DNA of 34,004 nucleotides from a virus: IMG/VR virus record IMGVR_UViG_3300010354_000298, positions 1 to 34,004 of that record, one strand, 5' to 3'. The stretch's first letter is position 1, and each line of letters begins with the position of its first letter. Positions 9,303 to 32,081 of the stretch are shown one piece after another. Position numbers and translations under genes: made by a program. The notes beneath the pieces were generated by a model. It was given only the letters and a program-made list of their open reading frames with translations. It was not told the origin of the DNA and did not search any database.

Positions 9303-12300
9303 ATGACAACCACATCAAGACAAAATAATTTAATTCTTAATCAAGATTGGAAAAGGATCTATCAGACATTTAAAAATGCTGATTTTAAATCTTATGATTT
9401 TGAAAATCTACGCAGGGTAATAGTAAATTACCTAAAGGAAAACTTTCCTGAAGATTTCAATGACTATATCGAAAGCAGCGAATATGTAGCCCTCATTGAC
9501 GCTATTGCATTCATGGGTCAAAGTCTAGCATTTAGAACTGATCTAGCTAGTAGAGAAAACTTTTTAGAACTGGCAGAAACTAAAGAATCAGTCATACGTC
9601 TAGCACGTTTAGTATCATATAATCCTAGACGTAATATTCCTGCAAGTGGATTACTAAAATTTGATACAATTACAACCACAGAGGGTGTATTAGACAGTAA
9701 CGGTGTTAATTTAGCAGGACAAACTATTATTTGGAACGACCCCACAAATCAAAATTGGTTTGAACATTTTCAATTAGTTTTAAATTCTGCAATGAGCGAT
9801 AACGTAGAATTTGGACGTAGTCAAGGAACCTCAACTATACAGGGAATAAAAGCTGATCAATATAGATTTAGATCAACTTTTGCAGATGTGCCTATTTTCA
9901 GTTTTGATAAAGTTGTAGCAGGTCGCCGTAGTTTTTTTGAAGTTGTAAGCACTAGCTTTTTAGCACAAGAAGATTTTTACGAAGAACCGCCAATACCAAA
10001 CGCTGAAATAGGATTCGTATATAGACAAGACGGCAAAGGAGCTGCCAGCGCCAATACTGGATTTTTCATGCTGCTCAAACAAGGTAGCTTAGAGCTTACA
10101 GATTTTTCTATAGATGTCCCAACCACTAATGAGATAGTTACAGTTGATGTTGGTGGTATCAACGATTCTGATGTTTGGTTGTTTTCTGTTAATTCAGACG
10201 GAACACAAGGTACACAATGGACTAAAGTTTCAAGTCTAATTGGGACAAACATTGCCTATAACAGTATTAATTCAGATATTAGAAACATCTATAATGTAAT
10301 ATCAAAAGATCAAGATAAAATTGATCTAGTGTTTGCTGATGGGGTATACGGAAATTTACCACAAGGTGCATTCAAAGTTTACTATAGAGTAAGTAGCGGT
10401 TTAAAATATAATGTTGCTCCTGCTGAAATGCGTGGAATCAATATTGCTATTCCTTATATTAATAAACAAGGGGTTGCTCACGAACTGTTAATAAGTTTAA
10501 GTTTAAAATATACAATTACCAATGCCTCTACAAGTGAAGACATTGATAGTATTAAGGCTAGAGCTCCAGCAATATTTTATTCGCAAAACAGAATGATTAC
10601 AGGTGAAGATTATAATCTTGCACCCTTAGCCAGCAGTCAAGATATCTTAAAAGTCAAAGCAATTAATAGAACATCTAGTGGTGTAAGCCGTAACTTTGAC
10701 ATTATTGACGCTAGCGGAAAATATTCTAATGTAAATGTATTTGCAGACGATGGTGTATTGTATAAACAAGAAACAGAAACTACATTAGGATTCAAATTTA
10801 CCAATAGAATTGATATTATTAATTTTATAAGAAATAGTATAGAACCCGTTTTTACAAATACAGATGTCTACAATTTTTATTTGACAAAGTTTAACAAGAT
10901 TCAATTTTCTGAAAACAATGTGATTTGGACACAGATCACAAAAGATATCAATCAGTCAACTGGATACTTTATTAACTCTATTGACAGTAGTCTATTAAAA
11001 GTAGGAACATATACAACTAATAACTTAAAATATTTCTTTACCGGAGCACTAATAAAATTTGTTCCACCAACAGGTAAGGCATTTAAAAAAGGTCAGCTTG
11101 TTGATTTAGATGTTAATGATTCTGAACAAGTTACTAGATTATGGACCAAGGTAATTAAGGTTACTGGAGATGGAACCAATGCAGGTAGAGGCGTTCTCAA
11201 CACAGGCTTTGGACCAATTATTTTTAACGATATAGTGCCAACAGGAGCCATTGCATCACGAATTTTGCCGCGTTTTGTTAACAATCTTCCAACAGCTCTA
11301 GAAAGCGAATTGGCAAATTTAATTTCATTGAATGTAAATTTTGGGCTACGTTATGATCAAACAAACAGTGAATGGAAAATTGTAACTGCGGCCAACCTTG
11401 ATTTATTAAGTGATTTTAGTCTTGGTCGTACAGGTGATACAACTAACAGTAATTTAGATAGTAGTTGGATTCTTGCATTTATTAAACAGCCTGACAGCTA
11501 CATTGTTAGAATTAGAAGTTTAGAATATATCTTTAGAAGTTTAGAACAAAACAGATTCTATTTTGACAATAATCAAAAAACATTGAACAGAAGCACAGGA
11601 AAGGTTGTTAAAGATACTGTGAAAATTTTAGGTATTAATCCTGATAAGGATTTAATTAATCCTTTGAAAACAGAATTTGTATTTGAAGTTTCTGATGGTA
11701 TTAAATTTGAAGATGGATATCAGAGTACTGACGAAATTAAACTTGCATTTGCAGATAGTGATGACGATGGAGTGATCGACGATCCAGAGTCATTTGAGCA
11801 GGTTGTAGGTGTTGATTTAGATTTGAAGTATCTGTTCTTTAAGAGAGAATTAGATCTCACCGGTAATACTGTCTACACTTATATTGACAATAGTAATGAT
11901 ACTGTATTAATTCAACAAACAGAAGTTGGAATAGATGTTACAGATTATACAGATGGACAATTAATTTATTTTTACAGTTCTACTGAAGATAGAGTTAAAA
12001 GAATTGATAGAGCAACAAATACATTGATTGTTGATCCAACTTATAAAGCAGTAATTGGCAGACCAAAGTTGAAGTTTCAATATTTTCATACAGCTAACAT
12101 TGATCGAAGAATAGATCCAAGCTCTAGCAACATTATGGACGTTTATCTGTTAGTAAGAAATTATGATACAGAATTTAGAAGATACCTAGCAGGTATTATT
12201 ACTACCGAACCAGATGTTCCCTCAAGTGATAGTTTAAGAGTTACATTTGGTGGAGAACTGAATCTTATCAAATCAATCAGTGATGAAATCATTTATCATC

Positions 12301-12707
12301 CTGTGAATTATAAGGTGTTATTTGGTTCTAAGGCAGCTCCAAAATTACAGGCGCAATTTAAAGTTGTAAAAAATCCTACAAAAACTATCAACGATAATGA
12401 TCTTAAAGTAAGAATCGTTAGCGCCATAGAAACTTTCTTTGATATAAACAACTGGGATTTTGGAGACAGATTCTATGTAGGCGAATTAATAACTTATGTA
12501 ACAAACCAAGTAGCACCAGATGTTAGTAACATGGTTATAGTTCCTGTACAGCCTGACCAAGCATTTGGTAGTTTATTTGAAATTCAAAGTCAACCAGAGG
12601 AAATTTTTATTAACGGCGCAACAGTAGATGATGTCATTATTGTTTCTGCAATTACAGCCACAGAAATTAAAGCTGATGTCAATAGTATAGTAAACACAAC
12701 GGTATAA
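9303..12707 (+). CDS. 6: gp6-like baseplate wedge protein, enlarged
   Basis: Central wedge protein whose dimers form the ring of the baseplate. 1134 residues compared with 660 in T4. The N-terminal domain is characteristic: DFENLRRVIVNYLKENFPED, then YVALIDAIAFMGQSLAFRTD and LVSYNPRR (about residues 36-120). The C-terminal gp6/J-like domain is at about 1015-1134 (IVSAIETFFDINNWDFGDRF, ELITYVTNQVAPDVSNMV). The extra length is a central beta-rich insertion of about 500 residues. That insertion includes an EF-hand-type loop at residues 818-829. The gene is separated by 3 bases from the giant gene, with which it is presumably co-transcribed from the late box at 9276. Confidence 0.9.
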   Translation: MTTTSRQNNLILNQDWKRIYQTFKNADFKSYDFENLRRVIVNYLKENFPEDFNDYIESSEYVALIDAIAFMGQSLAFRTDLASRENFLELAETKESVIRLARLVSYNPRRNIPASGLLKFDTITTTEGVLDSNGVNLAGQTIIWNDPTNQNWFEHFQLVLNSAMSDNVEFGRSQGTSTIQGIKADQYRFRSTFADVPIFSFDKVVAGRRSFFEVVSTSFLAQEDFYEEPPIPNAEIGFVYRQDGKGAASANTGFFMLLKQGSLELTDFSIDVPTTNEIVTVDVGGINDSDVWLFSVNSDGTQGTQWTKVSSLIGTNIAYNSINSDIRNIYNVISKDQDKIDLVFADGVYGNLPQGAFKVYYRVSSGLKYNVAPAEMRGINIAIPYINKQGVAHELLISLSLKYTITNASTSEDIDSIKARAPAIFYSQNRMITGEDYNLAPLASSQDILKVKAINRTSSGVSRNFDIIDASGKYSNVNVFADDGVLYKQETETTLGFKFTNRIDIINFIRNSIEPVFTNTDVYNFYLTKFNKIQFSENNVIWTQITKDINQSTGYFINSIDSSLLKVGTYTTNNLKYFFTGALIKFVPPTGKAFKKGQLVDLDVNDSEQVTRLWTKVIKVTGDGTNAGRGVLNTGFGPIIFNDIVPTGAIASRILPRFVNNLPTALESELANLISLNVNFGLRYDQTNSEWKIVTAANLDLLSDFSLGRTGDTTNSNLDSSWILAFIKQPDSYIVRIRSLEYIFRSLEQNRFYFDNNQKTLNRSTGKVVKDTVKILGINPDKDLINPLKTEFVFEVSDGIKFEDGYQSTDEIKLAFADSDDDGVIDDPESFEQVVGVDLDLKYLFFKRELDLTGNTVYTYIDNSNDTVLIQQTEVGIDVTDYTDGQLIYFYSSTEDRVKRIDRATNTLIVDPTYKAVIGRPKLKFQYFHTANIDRRIDPSSSNIMDVYLLVRNYDTEFRRYLAGIITTEPDVPSSDSLRVTFGGELNLIKSISDEIIYHPVNYKVLFGSKAAPKLQAQFKVVKNPTKTINDNDLKVRIVSAIETFFDINNWDFGDRFYVGELITYVTNQVAPDVSNMVIVPVQPDQAFGSLFEIQSQPEEIFINGATVDDVIIVSAITATEIKADVNSIVNTTV
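11754..11789 (+). other. EF-hand-type calcium loop encoded within gene 6
   Basis: Residues 818-829 read DSDDDGVIDDPE. Asp at loop positions 1, 3 and 5, Gly at 6, Ile at 8 and Glu at 12 match the canonical 12-residue EF-hand loop. No flanking helices are evident, so this is more like the isolated loops of dockerin or thrombospondin-type proteins. Confidence 0.6.
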
Positions 12708-12710
12708 GAT

Positions 12711-15700
12711 ATGGAAAGAGAAACATACCCAAAAAGCGGAATTCCAATTAGAAGAACGGTAGATCTTTTACCTCAAAATTTTAAGACTGAAGCTAATTCT
12801 AAATTTTTTGCTGGAACGTTTGATCCACTAATACAACCAGGTAGTCTTGAAAAAATAGTAGGCTACTACGGACGCAGGTTTGGAAGAACCTACGCTAGTA
12901 AAGATGTTTATTTAGATACTGATCAAACATTGCGAAGTAGGTATCAACTTGAACCAGGTGTTGTTGTAAGAAACAATTTGCAAAAAGTTGAAAATTTCTA
13001 TGATTACATAGATTTTAAAAATCAATTAAAGTTTTTTAATAACACCTTAGAAAGAGATGATCTTATCACAGATCAAGATCACTACAGTTGGGACCCTCCC
13101 ATTGACTGGGATAAGTTTGCTAACTTTAGAGAATATTACTGGATTCCAGATGGTCCTCCTCCTATTACTATTACAGGACAAAGACAAAGCATTACTAGTA
13201 CCTATAGAGTTAGACTTGGTGTTACATCAACATGGATCTTCTTTCCAGACGGATTAACTAATAATCCTACAATTACATTGTACAGAGGACAAACCTATAA
13301 GTTTCAAGTTAATGCTCCTAATGAAGGATTTGTAATTAGAACAAATTACGATACAGGTAGTTTATTATACAAACCTTATTTGCCTTACAGCAAGGGTCAA
13401 TTAGCAGTTTATGATGGTAAACTATGGAGAGCTAAAACAGATATAGGTATTGCTGATCAGAGCACGATTAACGAATTCAGTCAAGATTGGGAATATCTAG
13501 AAGCTGCAAGTCAGGCAACATCCCTAGATTATAAAAAAGGTATCACTAATAACGGTGTGCAAAACGGTACACTTACATTTACTGTTCCATTAGATGCACC
13601 TGATGTCTTGTTCTATCAAAGTGCAACAGACATTAATCGATTTGGTAGATTCCTCATTGGCGATGTTGAAGATAATACTAAGATTGATGTAGAAAAAGAA
13701 ATCATAGGAAAAGCAACATATACAAGTAGTAATAGTATTTCATTTTCTAACGGCATGAAAGTTCGTTTTGAAGGTCAGGTATTACCTGAAAAATACAGTA
13801 GAGATACCTGGATAGTAGAAGGAGTTGGAGAATCTATTCAGTTGATTAGATTCCAGGATCTTGTACCTCCTGTACTATCTACAAACAGTTTAGAAATATT
13901 GTTTGACAATGGGGGTTTTGATTCTGAACCCTTTGATGATGCAACAACTTATCCAGAAGCTAAAGATTATGTAACCATCAATAGATCTAGTAGAGATGGC
14001 AATCCTTGGTCACGATATAATAGATGGTTTCACAAATCTGTATTAGAATTAGCACACAAATTATCGGACAGTGACTTTGATGCGCCGGAAACATCGAGGG
14101 CCAAGCGACCAATTATAGAATTTCAGCCACACTTAAAATTGTTTAATCATGGTGCTGTAGCAAAACAACCAGTTGACTTTGTAGATACATTTACCACTGA
14201 TGTGTTTTCTGTGATAGAAGGCAGTTTAGGTTACAATGTTGACGGAGAAGAACTGTTCAATGGTGCTAGACTACTAGTTGTTGCCGATACAGATAGTTTA
14301 GCTAATAATAAAATTTATACTGTAAACTTCATTCGTCATAACAACAGACGCCAAATTAATCTTATTCCTGCTGATGATGCAACATCAATTTTGGGAGAGG
14401 GTGTTTTTGTTCGAAGAGGAAATGTCAACAGAGGAACTATGTTCCATTTTGACGGTACAAATTGGACATCAAGTCAAAAGAAAACCGCAATTAATCAGAG
14501 TCCATTATTTGACGTATTTGATGAGAATGCAGTTAGCTTTGGTAATCAAGCTACCTATCCAGTAAGTACATTTATTGGTAGTAAAATATTAAGTTATAAA
14601 GTTGGCAATAGCGTCAACGACTCAGAACTAGGTTTTAGTTTAAGTTATCTAAACATTGATAATGTTGGTGACATACAGTTCAACTTTGATTGGGACGTTC
14701 AAACTTTTGAATATCAAGTTAATAAAGTAATTTTGAATAAAACTGTTCGAACAGGTTATTACTTTTTTACAGATGATGAAACATATGGTAATAATTGGAT
14801 AAAAATTGATCGTGATTTTTTACAACCAATTATTGATTCAACATTAATATCAGATACAACATTTTCTTTTGAAAACAATGCCCTTAAATGGGATTCCGTT
14901 CAAGACCAAAACATATTCAAAGTCTTGATTTATATTAACGGTAACAAATACAGAGGAACTTATACACGAGATAGAAATGTTTTTACCATTTCAACAGAAC
15001 TAGTCAAAGGCGACGTTGTAGTTTTAAAAGTTTATACATCAGAAGATCCTCATCTAGGTTACTACGAAATACCATTGGGTTTAGAAAAGAATCCTCTGAA
15101 TCAAGAAATTAAAACATTTACACTTGGCCAAGCTGTGGATCATGTGTCTACTGCTTTAGATTTATATGAAAATTTTCAAGGTGATTATCCTGGCACAAGT
15201 AATTTGAGAGATATTACAGGTTTTCAAAATCTTGGCAAGAGATTTTTAAAACATTCTGGAATCACACCGACTGTAATATCTTTATTGTGTGACAAAAATA
15301 TTAACATTGTAAAGGCTTTGCAATTTGGTAAAAAATCTTACAACGATTTTAAAAACAATTTTATTCGTATAGCAGAAACATTAGATTATGATGGTGATGT
15401 AGTAAACTTTGTTGATAGTATTTTAGAAGAACTTAATAAAGTTAAAACTAATGCAGATCCCTTTGCTGACAGCGACATGGTAGGCACAGGTGCCTTTACT
15501 TCTAAAGACTACATTGTTGAAGACGTTGGCATAAAAACTTTTGCTCTGAACGAAATTTTTACCCTAGATACCTTAAGTAGAAAAGCTGTCTATCTATATC
15601 TAAATGATGTACAACTATTACACAAGTACGATTATAACTTTAACACAACATTTGGTTTCGTTGAATTAACAGACCAAGTTGTTTTAAGTGAAGGTGATCG

Positions 15701-18700
15701 ACTACAGATAAGAGAATATCTATCAACAAGTTCATGTTTTATACCAGCTACTCCTACAAAATTAGGTTTGTATAAAAAATGGATTCCTAGAAAATACCTA
15801 GATACAAGTTATATAGATCCAGTAGAGGTCATACAAGGACATGACGGTAGTATCACGGTCACCTATGAAGATTTTAGAGATGACGTATTGCTTGAACTTG
15901 AAAAAAGAATTTTCAATAATATTAAACAGCAATACGACGAATCTGTATTTGATATAGATAATATTGTTGGTAGTTATTACTATGAACCTTTTTATACCAA
16001 ATCGCAGTTTGATGAAGTAATTTTTTATGATTTCTTAAAATGGATTCAAGATACTAACATTGATTATCTGACAAATCCGTACTTTGATTCAGAAAACAGC
16101 TTCACCTATACCTACAATCAAATGGCAGATCCAACTGGTCTAATTAATCTTCCAGGATGGTGGAGAGGTGTTTATAAATGGTTCTACGATACAGATAGAC
16201 CTCAGGTATGTCCATGGGAGATGTTAGGATTTACTGAAAAACCAGATTGGTGGGAAGCTGAATACGGACCTGCTCCTTATACAAAAAACAATTTAATTTT
16301 GTGGGAAGATCTTTCTAATGGAATTATTAGGCAAGGACCAAAAGCAGGAGTTCATCCTAGATACAAACGTGCTACATTATTGGACCATATCCCAGTCGAC
16401 GGCGATGGTAATCTATTAAGTCCTTTTGATAGCGGCCTAGCAAGAAACTTTGTTTTATTGAATAACAAAGGCGAATTTAAATTTGGCGATTTTAGTCCGG
16501 TTGAAAGTGCATGGAGATCTAGCAGTGAATATCCGTTCAGTGTTATCACTGCTATGTGTGTTTTACGACCTTATGAATTTATCATTGAAAGTTTAGACAG
16601 GTCAAGAATTAAGATTAATCGTATTGGACAAACAGTTCATTCTGATACCGGATTGTTCACTAAAAACGAAGACATTGTTTATCCTGTAGTAGGTGGGGAT
16701 CAGACTTCAGGTTTAATTAACTACATCGTAGATTTTGTTAAGAAAACTGGATTTGATTATACTTTAGTTAAAAATAAAATTGATCAAATAGACGTTAACC
16801 TTTCTGTTAGAATGAGCGGCTTTGTAGATCAACCTCAACAAAAGTTCTTGTTGGACAGTAAGAATCCTAGGTCAACTACAAGTAGTATTTTTATTCCGCC
16901 TGAAAATTATGACATTATTTTTAATGTTAGCTCACCAATTCGCAGTCCTAGCTACAGCGGTATGATCGTAGAAAAGGTAGAGACTGGTTGGAAAATTTAT
17001 GGTTATGATTTTTACGAACCTTATTTTACAGTATATGATCCACTAAAGAGCGAAAGTGATCCATTGATTAGTGTAGGCGGTATCAGCGAAAATTTTATCG
17101 ATTGGAAACCAAATCTTGTTATTACTAACGGAACAATAGTTAGATACAACGACACTTTTTATAGAGCATTACGTTCACATACTTCTACAGATACCTTTGA
17201 AATCTCATTATGGCAAAGATTGCCAAAACTACCTCTGGTAGGAGCACTTGAAGTTTTCCGTAGAAAAAATTGGCAATTTGCATCTAGACGAATTGCCTAT
17301 GGAACAGTTTTCAAAACACTTCAAGAAGTAGCTGATGTAATGTTGGGCTACGAAGAACATTTAATGAGGCAAGGTTTTGTTTTTAATGATTATGACACAA
17401 CCTTAGAAACACCTAAAAATTGGACCACGTCAGTTAAAGAATTTTTATACTGGACTAGACATAAATGGGCATTAGGATCTATTATCACATTAAGTCCTCT
17501 AGCTTCAAGAATAAAAATTAATCTTGAAGTAGGAGTGGTAGATAGCCTATTAGATAGTTTTTATGATTATAATATTTTAACTGATAATGGCAATGTATTA
17601 CCTGCTGATTTTATCAACGTCACTAGAGATTTTAGAGAAATCACAGTTGATACTACTAACACAGATGATGGTATATATTTCTTCAAGTGTTATCTTGTAC
17701 TAAAAGAACATGTTACAATTTTTTCTGATCGTACTGTTTTCAACGATGTAATGTACGATAAACCTACAGGATATAGACAAGACAGAGTAAAATGTCGAGG
17801 TTTTAGAACAGTAGATTGGGATGGTGATTACACAAGTCCTGGTTTTGTTTTTGACGAAGTTGATATTCAAGTTTGGCAACCTTTCACAGATTACAAATTA
17901 GGAGACATTGTAAATTACAAGTCTTATAATTGGGTAAGTCTTGTCAACCAGTCGGGGGTAGAATCCTTTGACGATACCAAATGGTCAAAATTAGATACTG
18001 TACCAACAAAGGGTTTAGTAAGAAATTTTGATTACAATGTAAATTTATTTGAAGATTTTTATAGTGTTGATGCAGACGGATCCGGAGCTAGCCAGCGAGA
18101 ATTAGCTAGACATCTAATTGGATATCAAACTCGTGATTACCTACAAAATCTAGCTGAAGATGCTGTAACACAATTTAAATTGTATCAAGGATTTATAAGA
18201 GAAAAAGGAACTTTAAATTCTGTAGTAAAAGTTTTTGATAAACTATCAAGGGTAAGCGCAGATAGTATCGTTCTTAATGAAGAATGGGCAATCCAAACTG
18301 GCAGATTAGGTGGCATTGATCAAACACAAGAAGTTGAGTTCAATATTTACAAACGAGATTTGTTGGTTAATCCACAGCCTGTGTTAATTACTGCCGGGCC
18401 AAAACCTACAGATAATCTAGACAAATACCTAAGAGTAAATCAGACAGATTTTAACAGATCATACTTGCCCTACACTACGAATATTAATCCTGTGATCAAG
18501 TATACTGATATCACAAGAGATGCAGGATATGTAAAAACAAATCAAGTTGACGTAATTGTAAAAAATGAAGATGAATTATTGTCTTTAGACGCTGCGTCAA
18601 TTGTTGAAAATAGTCACATATGGCTAACCTTTGACAAGAACACTTGGAATGTTTACAGATACAATCTATCTAAGTCTTTGATAATTCTTGGCATAGATGA

Positions 18701-21700
18701 AGTCACTTCCAACAAGACACTAGTTATTACCTATAATCAACCTTTGCAATTTCAAATTGATGAAATAATTGGCATTGTTGGTCTAGGCAAGTTAGATGGA
18801 TTTCACAGAATAATATCTGTTGAAGGTGTTACATTAACAATAGCACAACCCGCAGTTTATGCGGCACCAGAACTACCAGATACAAGTTCATTACAATATA
18901 ATACCTACACATTAACATCTGCAAGATATAATAATTATCAAGATGTTGAACAACAAAGTGCATCTTTATTAAAAGCAGGATCAAAAATATTTGTTGATAA
19001 TAAAGAAGAAAACACTGAAGATTGGGAAGTTATTGAAAAAACAAAATTGTTCAATTCTGAATCTCTAAGCGAATACGGATCAACTGATCCAAGAAACGTA
19101 GGCAGAGATGTAGAATATATCCCGTCATTGAATGCAGTTGTTTCTGGCGTGCCAAACAGCAACATAGCAGTGATGTATAAGGAATCCGGTACAGGATTAA
19201 AAGTTCAACAGATTATATTTCCAGAATCCGGATACGAAAATTATCTAAACAAGAGCTTTGGTGATGCTGTGGCAGCAAGCCCAGACGGACAATGGTTAGC
19301 CATTGGAGCCCCATTAGCTTCGGGTGTTCCAAATAGATTTAAGGGTTATTTTGCTGCCAATGAAATTTACATGGCCGGCGATCTTGTTTTGTTTAATGGA
19401 CAATTGTGGGAATCTCTAAGCGAACAAAATACTATTGGATTTGACCCTCAAGATGACGGAAGTACTGATACACTATTAGCTACATCTAGTAAATTTAGAG
19501 ATTTAGATTGGAAGTTAGCTACTATAGTAAATGCTAATTTAACCGGAACACAAGGACCAACTAATCAAGGTGCAGTATTTCTTTACAAGTATACAAATAA
19601 TCTATGGAACTTAGAGGAAATTTTATTAAGCCCAAGAATAGCTGAAAATGAAAAATTTGGACATAAAATTTCTATTGCTGTAAGTGGCAACAATTATTAT
19701 ATGAGCGTCTCTGCTCCAGGATCATTAGACAATCTAGGCAGGGTGTATCTTTATAAATTTATAGGTAGCGGAGCAAGAACTACCCAGCAAGTATTGACCA
19801 TTGCTGGTAATGTTGCGGTTAATTTCACTACTAACGTAATCACATTTAATAGAAATCACAATTATGTTACTGGACAGTTGTTACGTTATATTAACGGAAC
19901 CTATGGCGGAGAAGATAAATCAACAGCCACATCTCCACCACCTCCAGAGGATTATACTATTCTTTATGCTATCAGAGTTGATGCAACAAGAATACAACTA
20001 GCATTAAACATTGAAGATGCAGCATCTGGTAGTGCAATAAATTTAAGAGACTTTGGCATCGATGATTCAAGTAGTCATACATTTATCAATCAATTCATCA
20101 CAGGATGGCAACATTTAGATAATGTAAATTATAGAGGCATTTACGATACTACAGGAACTGCTTTATATGCCGTGGATTCTATTGTATGGTATAACGGTAG
20201 ACTTTATCAAGCTCTACAAGAAACTCTAGGCAATGTTACGCCGTTAGATCAGAACAATGATTGGCAGTTGTTAGATAATGCTGCCACGCAAAATTCTTTA
20301 CCGTCAAATATTTCTTTAGAAGATACTCCAACTGATGGTTCGTCAACTGACAGTAGTATGGAAGTTGGTTCAGTTTATCCGGTAGTTGCAGTCAATCAAA
20401 TTATTGTAGGTGAAGTTTATACTATTGAAAATTTTGGCACCACTGATTTTACATCAATTGGTTATAATCCTGCTGCAAGTAATTTAACTTTTAAGGCAAC
20501 AGCAGTGGGAGTTGGCACAGGTACCGTAAGATGGAACTCCTATCAGTTCGCTGAACTTGTAAATTCAGGTGATTTATTTGGTTCTGCAATGTCAATGAAT
20601 AGGGACGGCAGCATATTAGTTGTTGGAGCACCAGAATCAAATGGACAATACTTCAGTAATTTTAGAGGCATCTGGACAAGTTATCAAGAATATTTTGAAG
20701 ATGATGTTGTAAAATACAACGGAAGTTACTACAGATTAAGGGATACTGTATTAGATTCTGCACTCGATAGTACACAAATTTTAACCAGCGTAAATCAAAT
20801 ACCAACCAACGGTGATCCTTGGTATATTGTTGATTCTTCAGATAATGTGTCATCTGGTAAAATATTTGTTTACAGACGTTCGTCTAATGATGTATACGAA
20901 TTAACACAGTCAATCAGCAACGATAATTTAGACATTGTGTCAGATCTTAGTATCTCGGAAGATATCAAATCTGGTGACAACTTTGGCACAGCAGTAGATA
21001 TTGATTACACAGGCACAACAATTATTGCAAGTAGCCCAAAGGCTGATAACAATTTCACAGATCAAGGCGCTGTGTATGTGTTTAAGACAACTGATGTGTC
21101 TAGTGGATCATATAGACTAAAACAGAAATTAATTAGCCATGAATCTTACGCTAATGAATTTTTTGGTAGCGATATTGCTATCAGTAGTGCTACTGAACGT
21201 ATCGTAGTTGGTGCTAGAAATGCTACATTTAAGTTACCTGTAACATTTGATAGTAATTCAACATCCTTTGATAATACAAATACTAGGTTCTTTAACGAAG
21301 AAGGTAATACTGGGCAAGCCTACGTATTTGATAGAAAAGACCAAACTTATTTCCTTACAGAAAAACTTGAAGCAGATAATTTTCAAGATTGGGAATCTTT
21401 TGGTTATAGTGTTGATTGTTATGGAAGTGTAATAGCCGTAGGGTCACCATCGTTCAGAAATAATTTTTACAGGAAATTAAATGGAGTTGTACCAACAGGA
21501 GGTACAGGCGTAGATCTAGTTATAAATCTTACAGTTCTTAATGGATCAATCGTTGCAATTGAAATTGATGATCCTGGAGCTGGATATGTGGTCAGTGACT
21601 TTAATAACGATCTAGATGTATTGACCATTCCAGGTTCTACTAGCATGGACAATGCTACATTTAAAATTGCCACAGTCAATGGTACTGGCGGTGTACTAAC

Positions 21701-24700
21701 AACATTTATTAACTATAATGGAAGCTCTTATGCTACTCCAGCCGAGACGTTAGAAACTGGCAATGTAAGATTATTTAGAAAAGATACAACAAAGACATCT
21801 TGGAATACCATAGCTACTAGAAATGATCTAGTAGATATCAGTATGTTTAATAGTATCAGTGTATATGATGATATTAATAAAATTAAACTAGCCGATGTTG
21901 AGATTGTTGATCATTATAAGTTGAAAATTTTAGGTGAAGCAGATCAAGAAATTAAATTTAAAACAATGTACGATCCTGCTGTATACACCAACGGTACTGA
22001 ACTACAGGAAGTTGATGAAAATCAAGCATGGTTTGAAAAGCATGTAGGTCAGCTATGGTGGGATATCAGCAAGGTTAAATTCTTAAATTATGAACAAGGC
22101 GATATCGATTATAGAGTTGGTAATTGGAATCAGCAGGCCTACGGATCAAATATAGATGTATATGAATGGGTAGAGACAAAGTTAACACCAACTCGATGGG
22201 CTGCTCTTGCCGATACCAATGAGGGATTAGCTCAAGGTATTTCAGGTCAACCATTGTATGCAGACAATTCTGTATATAGTGTAAGAGTGCTAACCAATCC
22301 TAACACAGGTGAAGATACTGAAACCAAATACTACTACTGGGTTAAAAATTCAACTATTATTCCAAAAAATGTAATAGGACGCAGATTATCTGCAGCCGCA
22401 GTGGCAACCTATATTGATAATCCAATTTCCACTGGTATTCAATTTTTAAGCCCAATAGCAGCTGATAAATTTTTAGCTTTTAACTTTGACAGCTTAATCT
22501 CTACAGATTACGCTTTGATAAACATTCAGTACAAAAACGACAACAGTATGTTGAATCCTGTACACAGTGAATATCAATTAATAACAGAAGGGGTAGCAGA
22601 TAGTCTGCCTAATGAAGCATTAGAGAATAAATGGATTGACAGTTTAGTAGGTTATGACAGATCTGGTAAAACAGTTCCAGATGATACAATTCCTATTAAA
22701 CAGCGTTACGGTTTGTCTGTAAGACCTCGTCAGTCTATGTTTGTAGATAGATTTTCTATTCTGCGTAGAACTTTAGATAATGTCAATACTGTACTACAAA
22801 CACGTGCCTTTGCAGATACAATTAATTATATTAATTTGAATCTAGTTGAAAACGTGCCAAATGAAATTTTAAATGAATACGATCAAGCAGTTGATACTCT
22901 AATTGATTTAGAACAGGTCGGAACTACAAGGGTAAGGAAAGCTGTATTACAGGCAAATATTGTTGATGGTCAAGTTGATACTATAGATATTCTTGACAGC
23001 GGATTTGGATATAAAAATACTCCATTTATTACTATAGAAGGTGATGGTACAGGTGCCCTAGCAACAATCACCACAGACGGCCAAGGCAAGGTTAATTCTG
23101 TAACAGTAACTTCTAAAGGAAGGAATTATACAACTGCTATTGTTCAAATAAGGTACTTCTCTGTACTAGTACGAAATGATGATTCAATTAAAAATTATTG
23201 GAGTATCTATGCCTGGGATGACATTAGAAGCACATTCTTTAGATCAAAATCTCAAGCCTATGATACGACAAAATATTGGACATTTGCAGACTTTTGGGCA
23301 GAGGGATACGGACCCACATCTCGTATCGTAAAAGAAATTTTAGACATATATCAAGAGCCAAGTTTAGAATTACAAGTTGGCGATCTAGTGCAGGTAAAAG
23401 AATTTGCCAATGGCGGATGGGCAGTATTAGAGAAAACAGAATCTGGTTTAGGTAATCTCTTAGACAATTATAATCTTGTTGGACGTAATAACGGTACTAT
23501 TCAATTATTAGTCAATGAATTAGCACCTGATCCCGGAGTTGGTTATGATAGAAGATCTAGCTTTGATGCTGATCTATATGATATAAACCCTACAAGAGAA
23601 TTACGTAATATTCTAAATGCTGTCAAACAAGATATTTTCATCGACGACCTTAGAGTAGAATGGAATAAATTATTCTTCACAGGGTTACGTTATGTGTTTG
23701 TTGAACAAAAATATGTGGACTGGGCATTCAAAACAAGTTTTGTAAATGCTACTCATAATGTTGGTGACTTAGAACAAAAAGTAAGTTATAAGAACGATAA
23801 TCTCGATAGTTTCTTTCAATATATCGAAGAAGTAAAACCATACAAAACTACTGTAAGAGAATATGTAAGCAAGTATACAGATATAGATCGAGTAGGTAGT
23901 GCAACTACTGATTTTGATTTGCCAGCATATTACGACACAGTTGAGAAAAAGATTTTACCAATCAAATCAGATTCTTCATTGTTAAACACTTATCCTTACA
24001 AGTGGTGGACAGATAATAACGGATATTCAGTTGTTGAAATATCTGTGTCAAATGGTGGGACAGATTATACTGATCCTCCTACAGTAGTAATTGAAGGAAA
24101 CGGTGCCGGTGTGACAGCACAAGCATACATTAGTAACGGATCTGTAACAGCCATTAAGGTATTATCAGAAGGTTTTGGTTATACAAAAACACCAACTATT
24201 CTTTTGGTCGGTGGTAACGGATCCTCACAAAACAAGGCCAAAGCGGCTGCTATTTTAGGTAAAACACCAGTTAGAAATATTAATCTTACTGTTAAGTTTG
24301 ATAGAATAGCCAAGCAAGGATATTTTCAAGAATATAATGTAGCTGAAACATTTACAGCTACAGGTTTAACTGCGGTATTCAATTTGAAATATGCTCCTAA
24401 TCGTGACAAGAGCAAGATTACTGTGTCAAAGAACGGTGATATAGTTTTAAGCACAGATTATACATTAAGTCTTTATTATAACGAGATAAATGGCTACAAT
24501 CTTCTAAGTGGCAAATTAACATTCAAATCTACACCTGCAAACGGAGATTTGATCACAGTGAGCTATGAAAAAAATATAGGCTTATTTGATAGTCTTAATA
24601 GAATTGATAGGCATTATAATCCTGTGTCAGGAATGAAGGGCAAAGAACCAGCACAGTTGATGACCGGTATAGATTTTGGTGGTGTACAGATTCAAGGAAC

Positions 24701-27359
24701 TACATTTGATGTAACCGGTGGTTGGGACGCATTACCTTGGTTTACTGATAGTTGGGACAGCGTTGAATCAAACAGCGACTACTATTACATAGCAGACGGC
24801 AGTACAATTTCTGTAACCTTGCCATTTGTGCCAGCAGTTGGTGAACAAATTTCTATATACTGGAAACCTGCAGGAAACAGAATTCCTGCTAATATTGATA
24901 CCCTTGGTCCTAATACTGCACCACAAGTAATTTTACTGCCAGAAACTTCTGAGCCAAGAACTATAAGAGTTGACGATCCAAATTGGGTTGAAAACTGGGA
25001 TTCAAGTAACACAACAAATCCAAATGCTCAAATGCCAACATTTGTTGGGGATGGTTCAACTACCGTTGTAGAAATAGGACAGTACATAAGTGTTCAGGCT
25101 GGTGATACATTAATATTCCGTAAGTTAGACAGCGACGGATCTGTAACAATTACAGACGTTAACTTATTAGATACTTTGATTACAGGTGGATCTTTGTCTA
25201 ATATTTCAGGTGCGTATGTAACAGCCACAGGAGCTACCCCAGAAGAAATTGTTATTGACGGCGATAAATTTATAAGCCCAGATCAAGTACCGGCACCAGA
25301 AGAAAACATTCCTGGTCAAGTTCTTGAAAGTGTATCTATAAAAGTTTATCAAACAAATAAAACTGGAGCTGCACCTTTACAAAATAGAGTTATCTATGCA
25401 GACGGTGCTACTAGAAGATTTGCCATCGGATTAGAAATTACTGAAGATCGTTCAATTCTAGTATACTTGAACAAAGTCAAACAAGAAAAGATTCAAGTTG
25501 ATTCTAGTTTAGACTATGACATTGATTATGTAGCTAATGAGATTATTTTTACTAATATCCCACCGTTGGGGGCTATAGTTGAAATTATAGCTTTTGGTTT
25601 AGGCGGTATATCTTTACTAGATTACCAAGAATTTGTTGCTGATGGCGAAACACGTTTGTTTTTAACCAAAGCAGTTTATAGTCAAACTGAATCTGTGTTG
25701 GTAACAGTTGATGGTGTTGCATTTGATACTGGATTCAGTAATAGTTCAGAGTTTACAGATACTCAAAATAGAGTTATTGTACAATTTGGTTTTGCCCCAG
25801 CGGACGGCACAATGGTTAAGGTAGTAAGTTTAGGAGCTGCATTAGATACAGATTCTTCTCAACAAAGCATAGTAAGAGTCAATCAACAGGTATTCTATCA
25901 TGATGGTAGTTCAACATCCTATGAATTAGATAGATTTGTTAACTTATCTCGTGCATCCGCTGAATCAAGTATTTTAGTAACATTGAATGGCGCTCAACTT
26001 AAGGGTCCTGAAAACACTCTGGTTGTCTATGACGGCAGTAATAATCAAATAGCAGTAGGAACAGATCCTTTAAGATTTCCAGGCTCGATTACATACCTAA
26101 CAATTAAGGTTTTAATTAACAATACTCTAGCCACTGCCGTAGTAGATTGGACTTTAAATTCTACAACCAATGTGATTACCGTAAGGCAGGATCTATTAGA
26201 ACTTAACGACGAAATTAGAGTTGTTATTGATGCATTTGCTGATTATACCCTATCGGGTGACACCTTAACTTTATCGAGTGCTATTCTAAACACAATGAAT
26301 AACAATGATGATAGTACTCAAAAGGACACCTTAGAAGTTACTTGGTTTAGTGAATATCCAAGTATGGATATTGTCACAGATCAATATGCCGGTGGAAAAG
26401 TTAATTATAAGTTATCAAGAATTCCAGTAAATGAAAGATATGTTTGGGTGTACCTAAACGGAACAAGATTAACACTCAACCAAGATTATAAAGTAAGTAT
26501 TCAAAGAGGCGTGGTATATTTAAATGTGGATTCAACATTAACAGATGAATTAAAAATTGTTGAATTTGGAAATGATATCTACAAATTTCCAAGCGCCTAT
26601 GAAATTTACAAAGATATGCTTAATCGTTATCAGTTTAAACGATATAGTAGAAATGAAGTGAAGTTAACCACGGCTCTGAATTACTACGACACCACTATAA
26701 TTGTGAACGACGGAACGCAATTATACGATCCAACTGGTCGTTCTGCACCCGGAGTTGTTTATATTAACAATGAAAAAATTGAATATTTGCAGAAAAATGG
26801 AAATATACTGTCTCAACTTAGAAGAGGTAGTTTAGGAACCGCTATACCTGAAGTACATCCTGTTGATAGTTTTGTATCAGATAGCGGCCCATCTGAAATA
26901 ATTCCTTATAACGAAACACAACACAGACTTGATTTTGTCAGCGACGGCAGCACACTTCTAGTAGGACCTTTAGATTTTACTCCTTTACAAGGTACTAGAA
27001 GTTCTTGGTACAAAGAAACTATTCCTACAGAATACGGCCCATGCGACCAAGTTGAAGTTTTTGTTGCAGGAACACGCTTAAGGAAAAATCCTATGGACGT
27101 ATGGGACGAAGAACTAGGTGCATACAGCCCTTCAGGCGACAAACAAGTAGAGGCGGAATTTAGCGTTGACGGAGCAAGTCCATACATTAGATTAACCAAA
27201 GCTGTGGCCGCCGGCACACGTATTACGATAATTAGAAGAACAGGTAAAACCTGGTATGATAGAGGCACGACCACTGCAACAACGGGTAAAACAATGAACG
27301 AAAATAGCACAGCTATTACACGTTTTATTTTACAAAAGACAACTATTATACCAGAATAA
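12711..27359 (+). CDS. Giant 4882-residue baseplate/fibre protein (gp7 position), mosaic of adhesin-like modules
   Basis: One uninterrupted frame of 14.6 kb, right after gene 6 where T4 has gene 7 (about 1030 residues). The N-terminal part (about 20-150) is a phage-type conserved start (KIVGYYGRRFGR, YDYIDFKNQLKFF, PPIDWDKFANFREYYW). Residues 1142-1201 are a Trp-rich core. Residues 1767-1848 hold an acidic helical stretch ending GFIREKGTLNSVVKVFDKL, loosely like a T4 gp7 segment. Residues 2128-3037 form an FG-GAP-like propeller with inserts. Six CBM5/12-like modules, three GxGY modules and a C-terminal run of beta-sandwich repeats (about 3879-4866) follow the sequence coordinates listed separately. 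There is no signal peptide or membrane segment. The likely role is wedge assembly plus fibre or receptor platform. The gp7 equivalence is inferred from position; I did not see a full-length match. Start: ATG at 12711, 3 bases after gene 6, weak RBS. Confidence 0.8.
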   Translation: MERETYPKSGIPIRRTVDLLPQNFKTEANSKFFAGTFDPLIQPGSLEKIVGYYGRRFGRTYASKDVYLDTDQTLRSRYQLEPGVVVRNNLQKVENFYDYIDFKNQLKFFNNTLERDDLITDQDHYSWDPPIDWDKFANFREYYWIPDGPPPITITGQRQSITSTYRVRLGVTSTWIFFPDGLTNNPTITLYRGQTYKFQVNAPNEGFVIRTNYDTGSLLYKPYLPYSKGQLAVYDGKLWRAKTDIGIADQSTINEFSQDWEYLEAASQATSLDYKKGITNNGVQNGTLTFTVPLDAPDVLFYQSATDINRFGRFLIGDVEDNTKIDVEKEIIGKATYTSSNSISFSNGMKVRFEGQVLPEKYSRDTWIVEGVGESIQLIRFQDLVPPVLSTNSLEILFDNGGFDSEPFDDATTYPEAKDYVTINRSSRDGNPWSRYNRWFHKSVLELAHKLSDSDFDAPETSRAKRPIIEFQPHLKLFNHGAVAKQPVDFVDTFTTDVFSVIEGSLGYNVDGEELFNGARLLVVADTDSLANNKIYTVNFIRHNNRRQINLIPADDATSILGEGVFVRRGNVNRGTMFHFDGTNWTSSQKKTAINQSPLFDVFDENAVSFGNQATYPVSTFIGSKILSYKVGNSVNDSELGFSLSYLNIDNVGDIQFNFDWDVQTFEYQVNKVILNKTVRTGYYFFTDDETYGNNWIKIDRDFLQPIIDSTLISDTTFSFENNALKWDSVQDQNIFKVLIYINGNKYRGTYTRDRNVFTISTELVKGDVVVLKVYTSEDPHLGYYEIPLGLEKNPLNQEIKTFTLGQAVDHVSTALDLYENFQGDYPGTSNLRDITGFQNLGKRFLKHSGITPTVISLLCDKNINIVKALQFGKKSYNDFKNNFIRIAETLDYDGDVVNFVDSILEELNKVKTNADPFADSDMVGTGAFTSKDYIVEDVGIKTFALNEIFTLDTLSRKAVYLYLNDVQLLHKYDYNFNTTFGFVELTDQVVLSEGDRLQIREYLSTSSCFIPATPTKLGLYKKWIPRKYLDTSYIDPVEVIQGHDGSITVTYEDFRDDVLLELEKRIFNNIKQQYDESVFDIDNIVGSYYYEPFYTKSQFDEVIFYDFLKWIQDTNIDYLTNPYFDSENSFTYTYNQMADPTGLINLPGWWRGVYKWFYDTDRPQVCPWEMLGFTEKPDWWEAEYGPAPYTKNNLILWEDLSNGIIRQGPKAGVHPRYKRATLLDHIPVDGDGNLLSPFDSGLARNFVLLNNKGEFKFGDFSPVESAWRSSSEYPFSVITAMCVLRPYEFIIESLDRSRIKINRIGQTVHSDTGLFTKNEDIVYPVVGGDQTSGLINYIVDFVKKTGFDYTLVKNKIDQIDVNLSVRMSGFVDQPQQKFLLDSKNPRSTTSSIFIPPENYDIIFNVSSPIRSPSYSGMIVEKVETGWKIYGYDFYEPYFTVYDPLKSESDPLISVGGISENFIDWKPNLVITNGTIVRYNDTFYRALRSHTSTDTFEISLWQRLPKLPLVGALEVFRRKNWQFASRRIAYGTVFKTLQEVADVMLGYEEHLMRQGFVFNDYDTTLETPKNWTTSVKEFLYWTRHKWALGSIITLSPLASRIKINLEVGVVDSLLDSFYDYNILTDNGNVLPADFINVTRDFREITVDTTNTDDGIYFFKCYLVLKEHVTIFSDRTVFNDVMYDKPTGYRQDRVKCRGFRTVDWDGDYTSPGFVFDEVDIQVWQPFTDYKLGDIVNYKSYNWVSLVNQSGVESFDDTKWSKLDTVPTKGLVRNFDYNVNLFEDFYSVDADGSGASQRELARHLIGYQTRDYLQNLAEDAVTQFKLYQGFIREKGTLNSVVKVFDKLSRVSADSIVLNEEWAIQTGRLGGIDQTQEVEFNIYKRDLLVNPQPVLITAGPKPTDNLDKYLRVNQTDFNRSYLPYTTNINPVIKYTDITRDAGYVKTNQVDVIVKNEDELLSLDAASIVENSHIWLTFDKNTWNVYRYNLSKSLIILGIDEVTSNKTLVITYNQPLQFQIDEIIGIVGLGKLDGFHRIISVEGVTLTIAQPAVYAAPELPDTSSLQYNTYTLTSARYNNYQDVEQQSASLLKAGSKIFVDNKEENTEDWEVIEKTKLFNSESLSEYGSTDPRNVGRDVEYIPSLNAVVSGVPNSNIAVMYKESGTGLKVQQIIFPESGYENYLNKSFGDAVAASPDGQWLAIGAPLASGVPNRFKGYFAANEIYMAGDLVLFNGQLWESLSEQNTIGFDPQDDGSTDTLLATSSKFRDLDWKLATIVNANLTGTQGPTNQGAVFLYKYTNNLWNLEEILLSPRIAENEKFGHKISIAVSGNNYYMSVSAPGSLDNLGRVYLYKFIGSGARTTQQVLTIAGNVAVNFTTNVITFNRNHNYVTGQLLRYINGTYGGEDKSTATSPPPPEDYTILYAIRVDATRIQLALNIEDAASGSAINLRDFGIDDSSSHTFINQFITGWQHLDNVNYRGIYDTTGTALYAVDSIVWYNGRLYQALQETLGNVTPLDQNNDWQLLDNAATQNSLPSNISLEDTPTDGSSTDSSMEVGSVYPVVAVNQIIVGEVYTIENFGTTDFTSIGYNPAASNLTFKATAVGVGTGTVRWNSYQFAELVNSGDLFGSAMSMNRDGSILVVGAPESNGQYFSNFRGIWTSYQEYFEDDVVKYNGSYYRLRDTVLDSALDSTQILTSVNQIPTNGDPWYIVDSSDNVSSGKIFVYRRSSNDVYELTQSISNDNLDIVSDLSISEDIKSGDNFGTAVDIDYTGTTIIASSPKADNNFTDQGAVYVFKTTDVSSGSYRLKQKLISHESYANEFFGSDIAISSATERIVVGARNATFKLPVTFDSNSTSFDNTNTRFFNEEGNTGQAYVFDRKDQTYFLTEKLEADNFQDWESFGYSVDCYGSVIAVGSPSFRNNFYRKLNGVVPTGGTGVDLVINLTVLNGSIVAIEIDDPGAGYVVSDFNNDLDVLTIPGSTSMDNATFKIATVNGTGGVLTTFINYNGSSYATPAETLETGNVRLFRKDTTKTSWNTIATRNDLVDISMFNSISVYDDINKIKLADVEIVDHYKLKILGEADQEIKFKTMYDPAVYTNGTELQEVDENQAWFEKHVGQLWWDISKVKFLNYEQGDIDYRVGNWNQQAYGSNIDVYEWVETKLTPTRWAALADTNEGLAQGISGQPLYADNSVYSVRVLTNPNTGEDTETKYYYWVKNSTIIPKNVIGRRLSAAAVATYIDNPISTGIQFLSPIAADKFLAFNFDSLISTDYALINIQYKNDNSMLNPVHSEYQLITEGVADSLPNEALENKWIDSLVGYDRSGKTVPDDTIPIKQRYGLSVRPRQSMFVDRFSILRRTLDNVNTVLQTRAFADTINYINLNLVENVPNEILNEYDQAVDTLIDLEQVGTTRVRKAVLQANIVDGQVDTIDILDSGFGYKNTPFITIEGDGTGALATITTDGQGKVNSVTVTSKGRNYTTAIVQIRYFSVLVRNDDSIKNYWSIYAWDDIRSTFFRSKSQAYDTTKYWTFADFWAEGYGPTSRIVKEILDIYQEPSLELQVGDLVQVKEFANGGWAVLEKTESGLGNLLDNYNLVGRNNGTIQLLVNELAPDPGVGYDRRSSFDADLYDINPTRELRNILNAVKQDIFIDDLRVEWNKLFFTGLRYVFVEQKYVDWAFKTSFVNATHNVGDLEQKVSYKNDNLDSFFQYIEEVKPYKTTVREYVSKYTDIDRVGSATTDFDLPAYYDTVEKKILPIKSDSSLLNTYPYKWWTDNNGYSVVEISVSNGGTDYTDPPTVVIEGNGAGVTAQAYISNGSVTAIKVLSEGFGYTKTPTILLVGGNGSSQNKAKAAAILGKTPVRNINLTVKFDRIAKQGYFQEYNVAETFTATGLTAVFNLKYAPNRDKSKITVSKNGDIVLSTDYTLSLYYNEINGYNLLSGKLTFKSTPANGDLITVSYEKNIGLFDSLNRIDRHYNPVSGMKGKEPAQLMTGIDFGGVQIQGTTFDVTGGWDALPWFTDSWDSVESNSDYYYIADGSTISVTLPFVPAVGEQISIYWKPAGNRIPANIDTLGPNTAPQVILLPETSEPRTIRVDDPNWVENWDSSNTTNPNAQMPTFVGDGSTTVVEIGQYISVQAGDTLIFRKLDSDGSVTITDVNLLDTLITGGSLSNISGAYVTATGATPEEIVIDGDKFISPDQVPAPEENIPGQVLESVSIKVYQTNKTGAAPLQNRVIYADGATRRFAIGLEITEDRSILVYLNKVKQEKIQVDSSLDYDIDYVANEIIFTNIPPLGAIVEIIAFGLGGISLLDYQEFVADGETRLFLTKAVYSQTESVLVTVDGVAFDTGFSNSSEFTDTQNRVIVQFGFAPADGTMVKVVSLGAALDTDSSQQSIVRVNQQVFYHDGSSTSYELDRFVNLSRASAESSILVTLNGAQLKGPENTLVVYDGSNNQIAVGTDPLRFPGSITYLTIKVLINNTLATAVVDWTLNSTTNVITVRQDLLELNDEIRVVIDAFADYTLSGDTLTLSSAILNTMNNNDDSTQKDTLEVTWFSEYPSMDIVTDQYAGGKVNYKLSRIPVNERYVWVYLNGTRLTLNQDYKVSIQRGVVYLNVDSTLTDELKIVEFGNDIYKFPSAYEIYKDMLNRYQFKRYSRNEVKLTTALNYYDTTIIVNDGTQLYDPTGRSAPGVVYINNEKIEYLQKNGNILSQLRRGSLGTAIPEVHPVDSFVSDSGPSEIIPYNETQHRLDFVSDGSTLLVGPLDFTPLQGTRSSWYKETIPTEYGPCDQVEVFVAGTRLRKNPMDVWDEELGAYSPSGDKQVEAEFSVDGASPYIRLTKAVAAGTRITIIRRTGKTWYDRGTTTATTGKTMNENSTAITRFILQKTTIIPE
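13371..13505 (+). repeat. CBM5/12-like module 1 in the giant gene
   Basis: Residues 221-265: KPYLPYSKGQLAVYDGKLWR followed by a closing W-E-Y-L. It matches the pattern aromatic-x(n)-G-D/Q-x-V-x-Y-x-G-x-x-W/Y-x-A...W-x-x-L of short chitin/cellulose-binding modules. It stands apart from the other five, in the N-terminal region. Confidence 0.55.
16134..16313 (+). other. Trp-rich conserved-looking core of the giant protein
   Basis: Residues 1142-1201 contain eight Trp, in NLPGWWRGVYKWFYDTDRP, CPWEMLGF, KPDWWEAEYGPAPY and NLILWEDL. The density of Trp, Pro and Tyr is far above the rest of the protein and suggests a buried structural core or a surface-binding patch. I do not recognise the fold. Confidence 0.5.
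17100..17222 (+). repeat. CBM5/12-like module 2 in the giant gene
   Basis: Residues 1464-1504: DWKPNLVITNGTIVRYNDTF followed by YRAL and a closing LWQRL. It has the same strand-loop pattern as the other copies. Confidence 0.5.
17874..17993 (+). repeat. CBM5/12-like module 3 in the giant gene
   Basis: Residues 1722-1761: WQPFTDYKLGDIVNYKSYNW, then VSL and the closing TKWSKL. It is the best match to the Y-x-x-G-D-x-V-x-Y pattern among the six. Confidence 0.6.
18006..18257 (+). other. Helical segment of the giant protein, weakly gp7-like
   Basis: Residues 1766-1849 contain NLFEDFYSVDADGSGASQRE, ARHLIGYQTRDYLQNLAEDA and GFIREKGTLNSVVKVFDKL. An acidic helical stretch followed by K-G-x-x-x-S-x-x-x-x-F recalls the C-terminal half of T4 gp7, but only from memory and over a short span. 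Confidence 0.35.
19344..19520 (+). repeat. CBM5/12-like module 4, inserted in propeller blade 2
   Basis: Residues 2212-2270: YFAANEIYMAGDLVLFNGQL, then WESL and a closing LDWKLA, with a Gly/Asp loop between. It lies between the inner strand (LAIGAP) and outer strand (GAVFLYKY) of blade 2. Confidence 0.58.
20136..20273 (+). repeat. CBM5/12-like module 5, inserted in propeller blade 3
   Basis: Residues 2476-2521: YAVDSIVWYNGRLYQAL and a closing NDWQLL. It is part of the long insert after blade 3. Confidence 0.58.
20397..20534 (+). repeat. GTTDFTxIG module in the giant gene
   Basis: Residues 2563-2608: VGEVYTIENFGTTDFTSIG, then FKATAVGVGTGTV. This short module recurs widely in phage and bacterial surface proteins (pattern G-x-x-Y-x-I-x-x-x-G-T-T-D-F-T-x-I-G...F-x-A-T...G-T-G-T). 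Its function is unknown to me. Confidence 0.6.
20667..20831 (+). repeat. CBM5/12-like module 6, inserted in propeller blade 4
   Basis: Residues 2653-2707: GIWTSYQEYFEDDVVKYNGS, then YYRL and a closing DPWYIV, with a longer loop than the other copies. It sits between VVGAP and the outer strand GKIFVYRR. Confidence 0.58.
21513..21638 (+). repeat. GxGY module 1, inserted in propeller blade 7
   Basis: Residues 2935-2976: LNGSIVAIEIDDPGAGYV followed by LTIPGS. It matches the recurring pattern G-x-(I/V)-x-x-I-x-(I/V)-x-x-x-G-x-G-Y of phage structural proteins, though only half of the module is clear. Confidence 0.5.
22944..23150 (+). repeat. GxGY module 2 in the giant gene
   Basis: Residues 3412-3480: VDTIDILDSGFGYKNTPFIT, then EGDGTGALATITTDGQGK and VNSVTVTSKGRNYTTAIV. 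This is a full two-half copy of the module. Confidence 0.65.
24030..24221 (+). repeat. GxGY module 3 in the giant gene
   Basis: Residues 3774-3837: VSNGGTDYTDPPTVVIEGNG, then VTAIKVLSEGFGYTKTPTIL. It is the closest relative of module 2 within the gene, with both halves present. Confidence 0.68.
24345..27310 (+). repeat. C-terminal run of beta-sandwich-like repeats in the giant gene
   Basis: Residues about 3879-4866 hold at least six divergent units of the form (A/V)DG-x-T-x-x-F-x-L...V-x-V-x-(L/V)-N/D-G...Y-x-(V/I)...V-x-F...P-x-x-G-x-x-(V/I)-x-V. They begin near 24345, 24783, 25390, 25630, 25891 and 26385. Examples are YADGATRRFAIG, VADGETRLFLTK and YHDGSSTSYELD, with strands ILVYLNKVKQ, VLVTVDGVAF, ILVTLNGAQL and VWVYLNGTRL. 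A separate PGVVYINNEKIEY...LRRGSLGT motif at about 26750-26850 and a final conserved-looking VEVFVAGTRLRKNP segment end the protein. Confidence 0.6.
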
Positions 27360-30130: not shown

Positions 30131-30142
30131 TAGGAAATAACA

Positions 30143-32062: not shown

Positions 32063-32081
32063 TAGTTAACGGAGCGATTAC

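Follow-up and report, generated by a model that had tools for sequence, protein, structure and literature searches.

The DNA stretch analysed here (IMGVR_UViG_3300010354_000298, 34 kb; its full 34,004 nt are called the window) is a baseplate cluster of an uncultivated T4-like jumbo-type phage, which infects bacteria. Its genes encode, in this order, a late sigma factor, a gp53-like protein, a gp5-like hub, gp25-like and gp6-like proteins, a giant open reading frame and tail-fibre proteins. Given its homologous frame, its match score (Table 1) and its place after gp6, the giant protein belongs to phrog_10938; this synteny is common to PA5oct, Phosso, Atu_ph07, RaK2, PBECO4, GAP32, CBB and others. 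The virion status of the family is documented twice, as the record of the PA5oct homologue carries an ESI-MS/MS note and the CBB homologue, CBB_236, which also adjoins gp6, is in the list of CBB virion proteins. On comparison of the frame with T4 gp7 using hhalign (nine giants against five gp7 proteins) a probability of only 0.1 was obtained; the place after gp6 agrees with gp7. As this comparison gave no sequence signal of homology, the gp7 label was set aside. C-terminal PHROG matches named "baseplate wedge" and "head closure" (residues 3403-3482) correspond to a GxGY module and were discounted as family evidence.

Elsewhere in the cluster, the gp5-like hub (6739-8811) has the gp5 trimerisation region while no lysozyme domain was detected in it (Pfam, E 0.01). 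One of the tail-fibre genes 3' of the giant encodes a Phage Tail Collar domain, and three successive tail-fibre-type proteins at 28043-33890 have common N-terminal matches (phrog_14394, phrog_15511, phrog_8309), as if triplicated, with differing distal parts.

In the middle of the giant protein lie seven FG...GAP-like signatures, at residues 2130, 2183, 2316, 2623, 2758, 2818 and 2897, in agreement with the count in a preliminary description made from the letters alone. The regular expression returns eight matches, one of them overlapping and spurious, compared with 0.35 ± 0.63 in shuffled sequences, and none of 5000 shuffles reaches eight. Furthermore, the region is a member of Pfam FG-GAP_2 (PF14312; E 2.4e-26, 92.1 bits against a cut-off of 23). 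The integrin calcium loop DxDxDG, described earlier as missing, was indeed not found in residues 2100-3040, nor was its relaxed form [DN]x[DN]x[DN]G. No blade matched the strict Cage motif as defined in PMC3192720 (regular expression search), whereas a relaxed FG..P is present in most blades, its P-to-G spacing being interrupted by inserts. A search of PDB sequences with the propeller gave insignificant matches only.

In order to examine the fold, an AlphaFold model of residues 1926-3075 was built with 73 clade sequences. Its mean pLDDT is 77.5, with values above 90 across much of the ring, and some of the inserts are predicted with low confidence, with block means of 24-58 in the D3-A4 linker and the GTTDF region and mostly 49-63 in the B7-C7 module. 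With VIA-align, model residues 187-1103 cover the whole integrin alphaL head (Z 38.5, rmsd 2.8 Å, 357 residues), and all 50 of the matches listed are integrin chains. TM-scores from Foldseek are low for the full model, of whose length the inserts make up a large share. In integrins the N-terminal segment supplies the outermost strand that closes the ring; since integrin residue 1 is aligned with model residue 187 (residue 2112), the closing outer strand was assigned to residues 2114-2119. Hence the predicted models, and these only, display the seven four-stranded blades and the N-terminal closing strand that characterise an integrin-type propeller (PMC3192720). Residues 2112-3029 are thus predicted to form a closed seven-bladed integrin-like propeller, which starts at nt 19044 and not at 19092 as first described. 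By fold it is integrin-like and by sequence an FG-GAP_2 member, but it falls outside the human-integrin type of propeller when the strict Cage motif and the calcium loop are required.

Table 1. Features of the giant protein and its propeller region (window positions; residues are those of the giant protein)
Feature	Position	Strand	Basis and remarks
gp6-like baseplate wedge protein	9303..12707	+	phrog_10646 baseplate wedge subunit, E 9e-282; its position places the giant protein
Giant virion protein, 4882 aa, directly 3' of gp6	12711..27359	+	phrog_10938 virion structural protein, E 4e-301
Frame strand DWEVIEKT, left of insertion point, residues 2104-2111	19020..19043	+	alignment to propeller-less relatives; model strand 181-185
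Predicted integrin-like seven-bladed propeller with all inserts, residues 2112-3029	19044..21797	+	integrin alpha match over model residues 187-1103; FG-GAP_2
Blade 7 putative closing outer strand, from the N-terminal side	19050..19067	+	model strand 189-194; role by integrin analogy
Blade 1, degenerate FG (NVGRDV)	19098..19217	+	regular expression, model strands
Blade 2	19257..19628	+	B2-C2 insert 19314-19565, CBM5/12-like, Pfam 18.6 bits alone, below cut-off
Blade 3, strands A-C	19656..19766	+	model strands
C3-D3 insert, ~110-aa beta module, residues 2353-2464	19767..20102	+	loop 0-193 aa in relatives
Strand D3, GWQHLDNV	20103..20126	+	model strand 540-543; directly after C3 in relatives without the C3-D3 module
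D3-A4 insert part 1, CBM5/12-like	20127..20276	+	Pfam 18.3 bits; phrog_5073 tail fiber, E 6e-4
D3-A4 insert part 2, GTTDFTxIG module	20361..20537	+	own HMM, E 8e-20, window copy among the HMM seeds
Blade 4	20574..20918	+	B4-C4 insert 20634-20852, CBM5/12-like; loop 5-130 aa in relatives
Blade 5, insert-free	20979..21134	+	best FG-GAP_2 stretch
Blade 6	21156..21368	+	B6-C6 29-residue hairpin 21222-21308; loop 3-57 aa in relatives
Blade 7	21399..21782	+	B7-C7 insert 21450-21755, GxGY module
Frame strand SWNTIAT, right of insertion point, residues 3030-3036	21798..21818	+	aligns to DDWNTIRE of Atu_ph07

The preliminary description had placed whole modules between the inner and outer strands of blades 2, 3, 4 and 7. 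This is the case for blades 2, 4 and 7, but blade 3 has instead two inserts, one in C3-D3 and one in D3-A4. An assignment of all blade 3 inserts to the C-D loop was also considered and dropped, as both the model and the relatives put D3 at GWQHLDNV; indeed, in relatives without extra modules blade 3 reads C3, short turn, xWxxxEN (D3), CBM-like module, A4. The three CBM5/12-like modules, the GTTDFTxIG module and the GxGY module listed at the outset are all present, while the C3-D3 module and the B6-C6 hairpin had been overlooked, and GNVRLFRK, then taken for the last outer strand, is according to the model strand order C7, the third strand of blade 7. Together the three CBM_5_12-like modules (PF02839) reach 39.8 bits against a cut-off of 26.2, with about 18 bits each singly, and they resemble the modules of tail-fibre families (phrog_5073). 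For the C3-D3 module, PHROG gave weak matches (E 3e-4) to parts of other giant baseplate proteins. Further copies of the CBM-like and GxGY modules occur elsewhere in the giant protein, which may reflect a general surface decoration. One more CBM5/12-like module was noted inside the conserved frame (17103-17186, residues 1465-1492), where the frame profile weakly matches the chitinase A1 chitin-binding domain (E 0.0035).

Neither exact peptide patterns (viral contigs) nor tblastn (isolates) recovered a near relative of the propeller, and relatives were therefore gathered by scanning IMG/VR with the conserved frame. A blade HMM built from the window found three to seven repeats at the same place in 99 of 99 near-clade members, window included. 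The eight cultured relatives that share the gene order gave no blade match, and all blades detected in a wider sample lay at this site. In a tree built from the frame (81 rows), the propeller label takes two changes, one of which comes from a long-branched row within the propeller clade (L188) whose 717-aa stretch has a single detectable blade and could be a replacement or else a propeller that has diverged strongly. When the flanks of the ring are joined, the frame is continuous with PA5oct, Atu_ph07 and Phosso around an empty site, and where the ring is absent the two flanks come together at a frame hairpin; the right flank contributes most of the score, and the junction is accordingly located only approximately. 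The propeller is an insertion in the frame of the giant protein, and these data fit a single acquisition in the ancestor of an uncultivated clade. At the same site Atu_ph07 and Phosso have a stretch of some 1.4-1.5 thousand residues in which several repeats of the GxGY type occur. In one further relative (L160) the reading frame of the giant gene is not kept from one frame block to the other (85 stops when read through), through faulty assembly or because the gene is disrupted.

Loop lengths were then compared in 98 relatives, which are mutually related, with loop borders taken from one MAFFT alignment and an insert counted when a loop was at least 25 aa above its minimum. Inserts are borne by 93 relatives in B2-C2, 92 in D3-A4, 93 in B6-C6 (a short hairpin), 77 in B4-C4 and 19 in C3-D3, and more rarely in B7-C7 (6), B1-C1 (3), D4-A5 (3), D1-A2 (2) and C2-D2 (1), while the A-B loops have none in any of the 98. 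The B2-C2 loop spans 12 to 787 aa and the blades remain constant. At its longest, about 787 aa in two relatives (L088 and L065), it holds a CBM-like module apparently split by several hundred residues, and the splitting sequence recurs in several relatives. GTTDF-type modules were found in four different loops; some relatives carry one within a CBM-like module, so that nesting there reaches four levels (frame, ring, CBM-like, GTTDF). At the other extreme, the model of a nearly insert-free relative (L166; 673 aa, pLDDT 81.3, pTM 0.82) matches the same integrin heads with Z 39.7 and rmsd 2.9 over 358 residues, hence the ring is predicted to fold without its modules. The model, the series from naked to loaded relatives and the site-specific variation together back the original description of a ring carrying whole modules in its loops.

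In the integrin topology, the BC and DA loops lie on the ligand-binding face and the AB and CD loops on the other. With faces assigned in this manner from strand topology, eight of the ten loops that bear inserts belong to the BC/DA type. On the frame tree at least 29 insert changes are spread over eight loops, 21 in BC/DA-type loops compared with 8 in C3-D3 alone, and the bias is weaker when counted as tree changes than as loops. Emergence of the inserts on one face, as initially proposed, is therefore true of most sites but incomplete, given that C3-D3, on the opposite face by topology, has changed at least eight times. Furthermore, identity to the four closest relatives decreases from the frame (0.72-0.77) to the blades (0.66) and the modules (0.51-0.52). 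Such an order may be expected if the modules face a changing partner, but also if they are just less constrained.

Among known systems, the closest in fold is the integrin alpha subunit with an alphaI domain inserted between blades 2 and 3 (PMC3192720), which has in common with the phage ring the seven FG-GAP blades, their count and order, the N-terminal closing strand and a ligand-binding domain in a ring loop. In contrast, the phage ring is devoid of calcium loops and of the strict Cage motif, has several modules in several loops and is part of a virion protein with no beta subunit. The SU10 nozzle protein is likewise a seven-bladed phage tail propeller itself inserted in another domain, with Ig-like domains between blades 2 and 3 and a docking loop on blade 1 (PMC9509320). 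It differs in that it belongs to a short-tailed phage and lines the DNA channel, whereas the ring described here is of the FG-GAP type, lies in a baseplate cluster and uses many loops. Baseplate propellers with proposed receptor binding are phi11 Gp45, which has five blades (PMC4901313), and phiKZ gp131C, which is seven-bladed and peripheral (cited in the same paper); both are separate fibre-type proteins, and the accessible part of that source reports no module inserts in their loops. The giants of the RaK2, PA5oct and Atu_ph07 type (phrog_10938) have the homologous frame and the place after gp6, but in place of an FG-GAP propeller they carry a different sequence of 205-1531 aa. A predicted fold match to the propeller was observed for the stand-alone Atu_ph07 "Hemagglutinin" A0A2L0UZX4 and for S-TIM5 H6WG31, which are separate, shorter proteins, not within a baseplate protein. 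A literature search joining FG-GAP, phage and baseplate found no paper in the collection searched.

From these elements we infer that the propeller and its modules probably constitute an adhesion platform at the tail base, with the ring as a receptor platform. The conserved frame of the giant protein was apparently broken once, in the clade ancestor, when an integrin-like FG-GAP ring entered a frame hairpin at its turn. The predicted ring would serve as a rigid carrier; whole small domains have been taken up by C3-D3 and by loops of the BC and DA type, most of which lie on the integrin ligand face, and the blades are left undisturbed. The domains taken up are CBM5/12-like, GTTDFTxIG, GxGY and others, some of them interrupted in turn. 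Exposed on the virion and present in several copies around the baseplate, such rings could offer several weak sugar-binding modules to surface glycans and contribute to adsorption, the avidity being gained before the tail-collar fibres encoded downstream come into action or jointly with them. More tentatively, the ring might be a general display device, gained once, with unrelated binding modules that are plugged into it, shifted from loop to loop and placed one within another, so that the adhesive face would change and the tail machine stay untouched; we hold this wider reading to be rather less than an even prospect.

The foremost alternative, which we regard as unlikely though worth weighing, is that propeller and modules are an assembly part that docks tail fibres or ties neighbouring wedges with no host contact. 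The SU10 propeller with its fibre-docking loop and Ig-like domains (PMC9509320), the gp7-like part of AlgoCIS reported to bind fibres (PMC8894135) and the fibre genes downstream of the giant are in line with such a role, but the modules evolve faster than the blades and the frame and their content varies, which would be unusual for a docking surface with conserved partners. Another explanation is that the inserts are near-neutral, the loops tolerating mobile beta modules, dispersed among large phages by recombination and of little consequence for function. Indeed, some modules are sporadic, with GxGY (B7-C7) in 4 and the GTTDF region in 5 of the 98 relatives, one module type occurs in several loops and nearly naked relatives exist. 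However, the CBM-like inserts are kept in B2-C2, D3-A4 and B4-C4 (93, 92 and 77 of 98), and the B2-C2 insert shows one change only on the frame tree, which points to a retained use; near-neutrality thus appears distinctly improbable. That the stretch is a string of separate small beta domains, as the large inserts between repeats and the low Foldseek scores could suggest, is hardly credible given that two independent models, one nearly insert-free, match integrin heads from first to last residue with Z of 38-40. The outcomes that the preliminary description named as refuting, an open ring or separate domains, were looked for in the model of residues 1926-3075 and not found.

Tail propellers in phages and a single ligand-binding domain inserted in an integrin propeller were already known. 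The phage baseplate protein described here joins both themes. Its novelty lies in an integrin-like ring that is part of a giant baseplate protein and offers many sockets, whose contents are exchangeable and nested; naturally occurring relatives cover the whole range from nearly bare rings to fully loaded ones. With regard to the adhesion platform, if the modules bind hosts, these phages would combine a constant carrier with adhesive parts that can be swapped, and the table of loops, by indicating which sites tolerate whole domains, would provide a testable rule for the evolution of phage host-binding surfaces.
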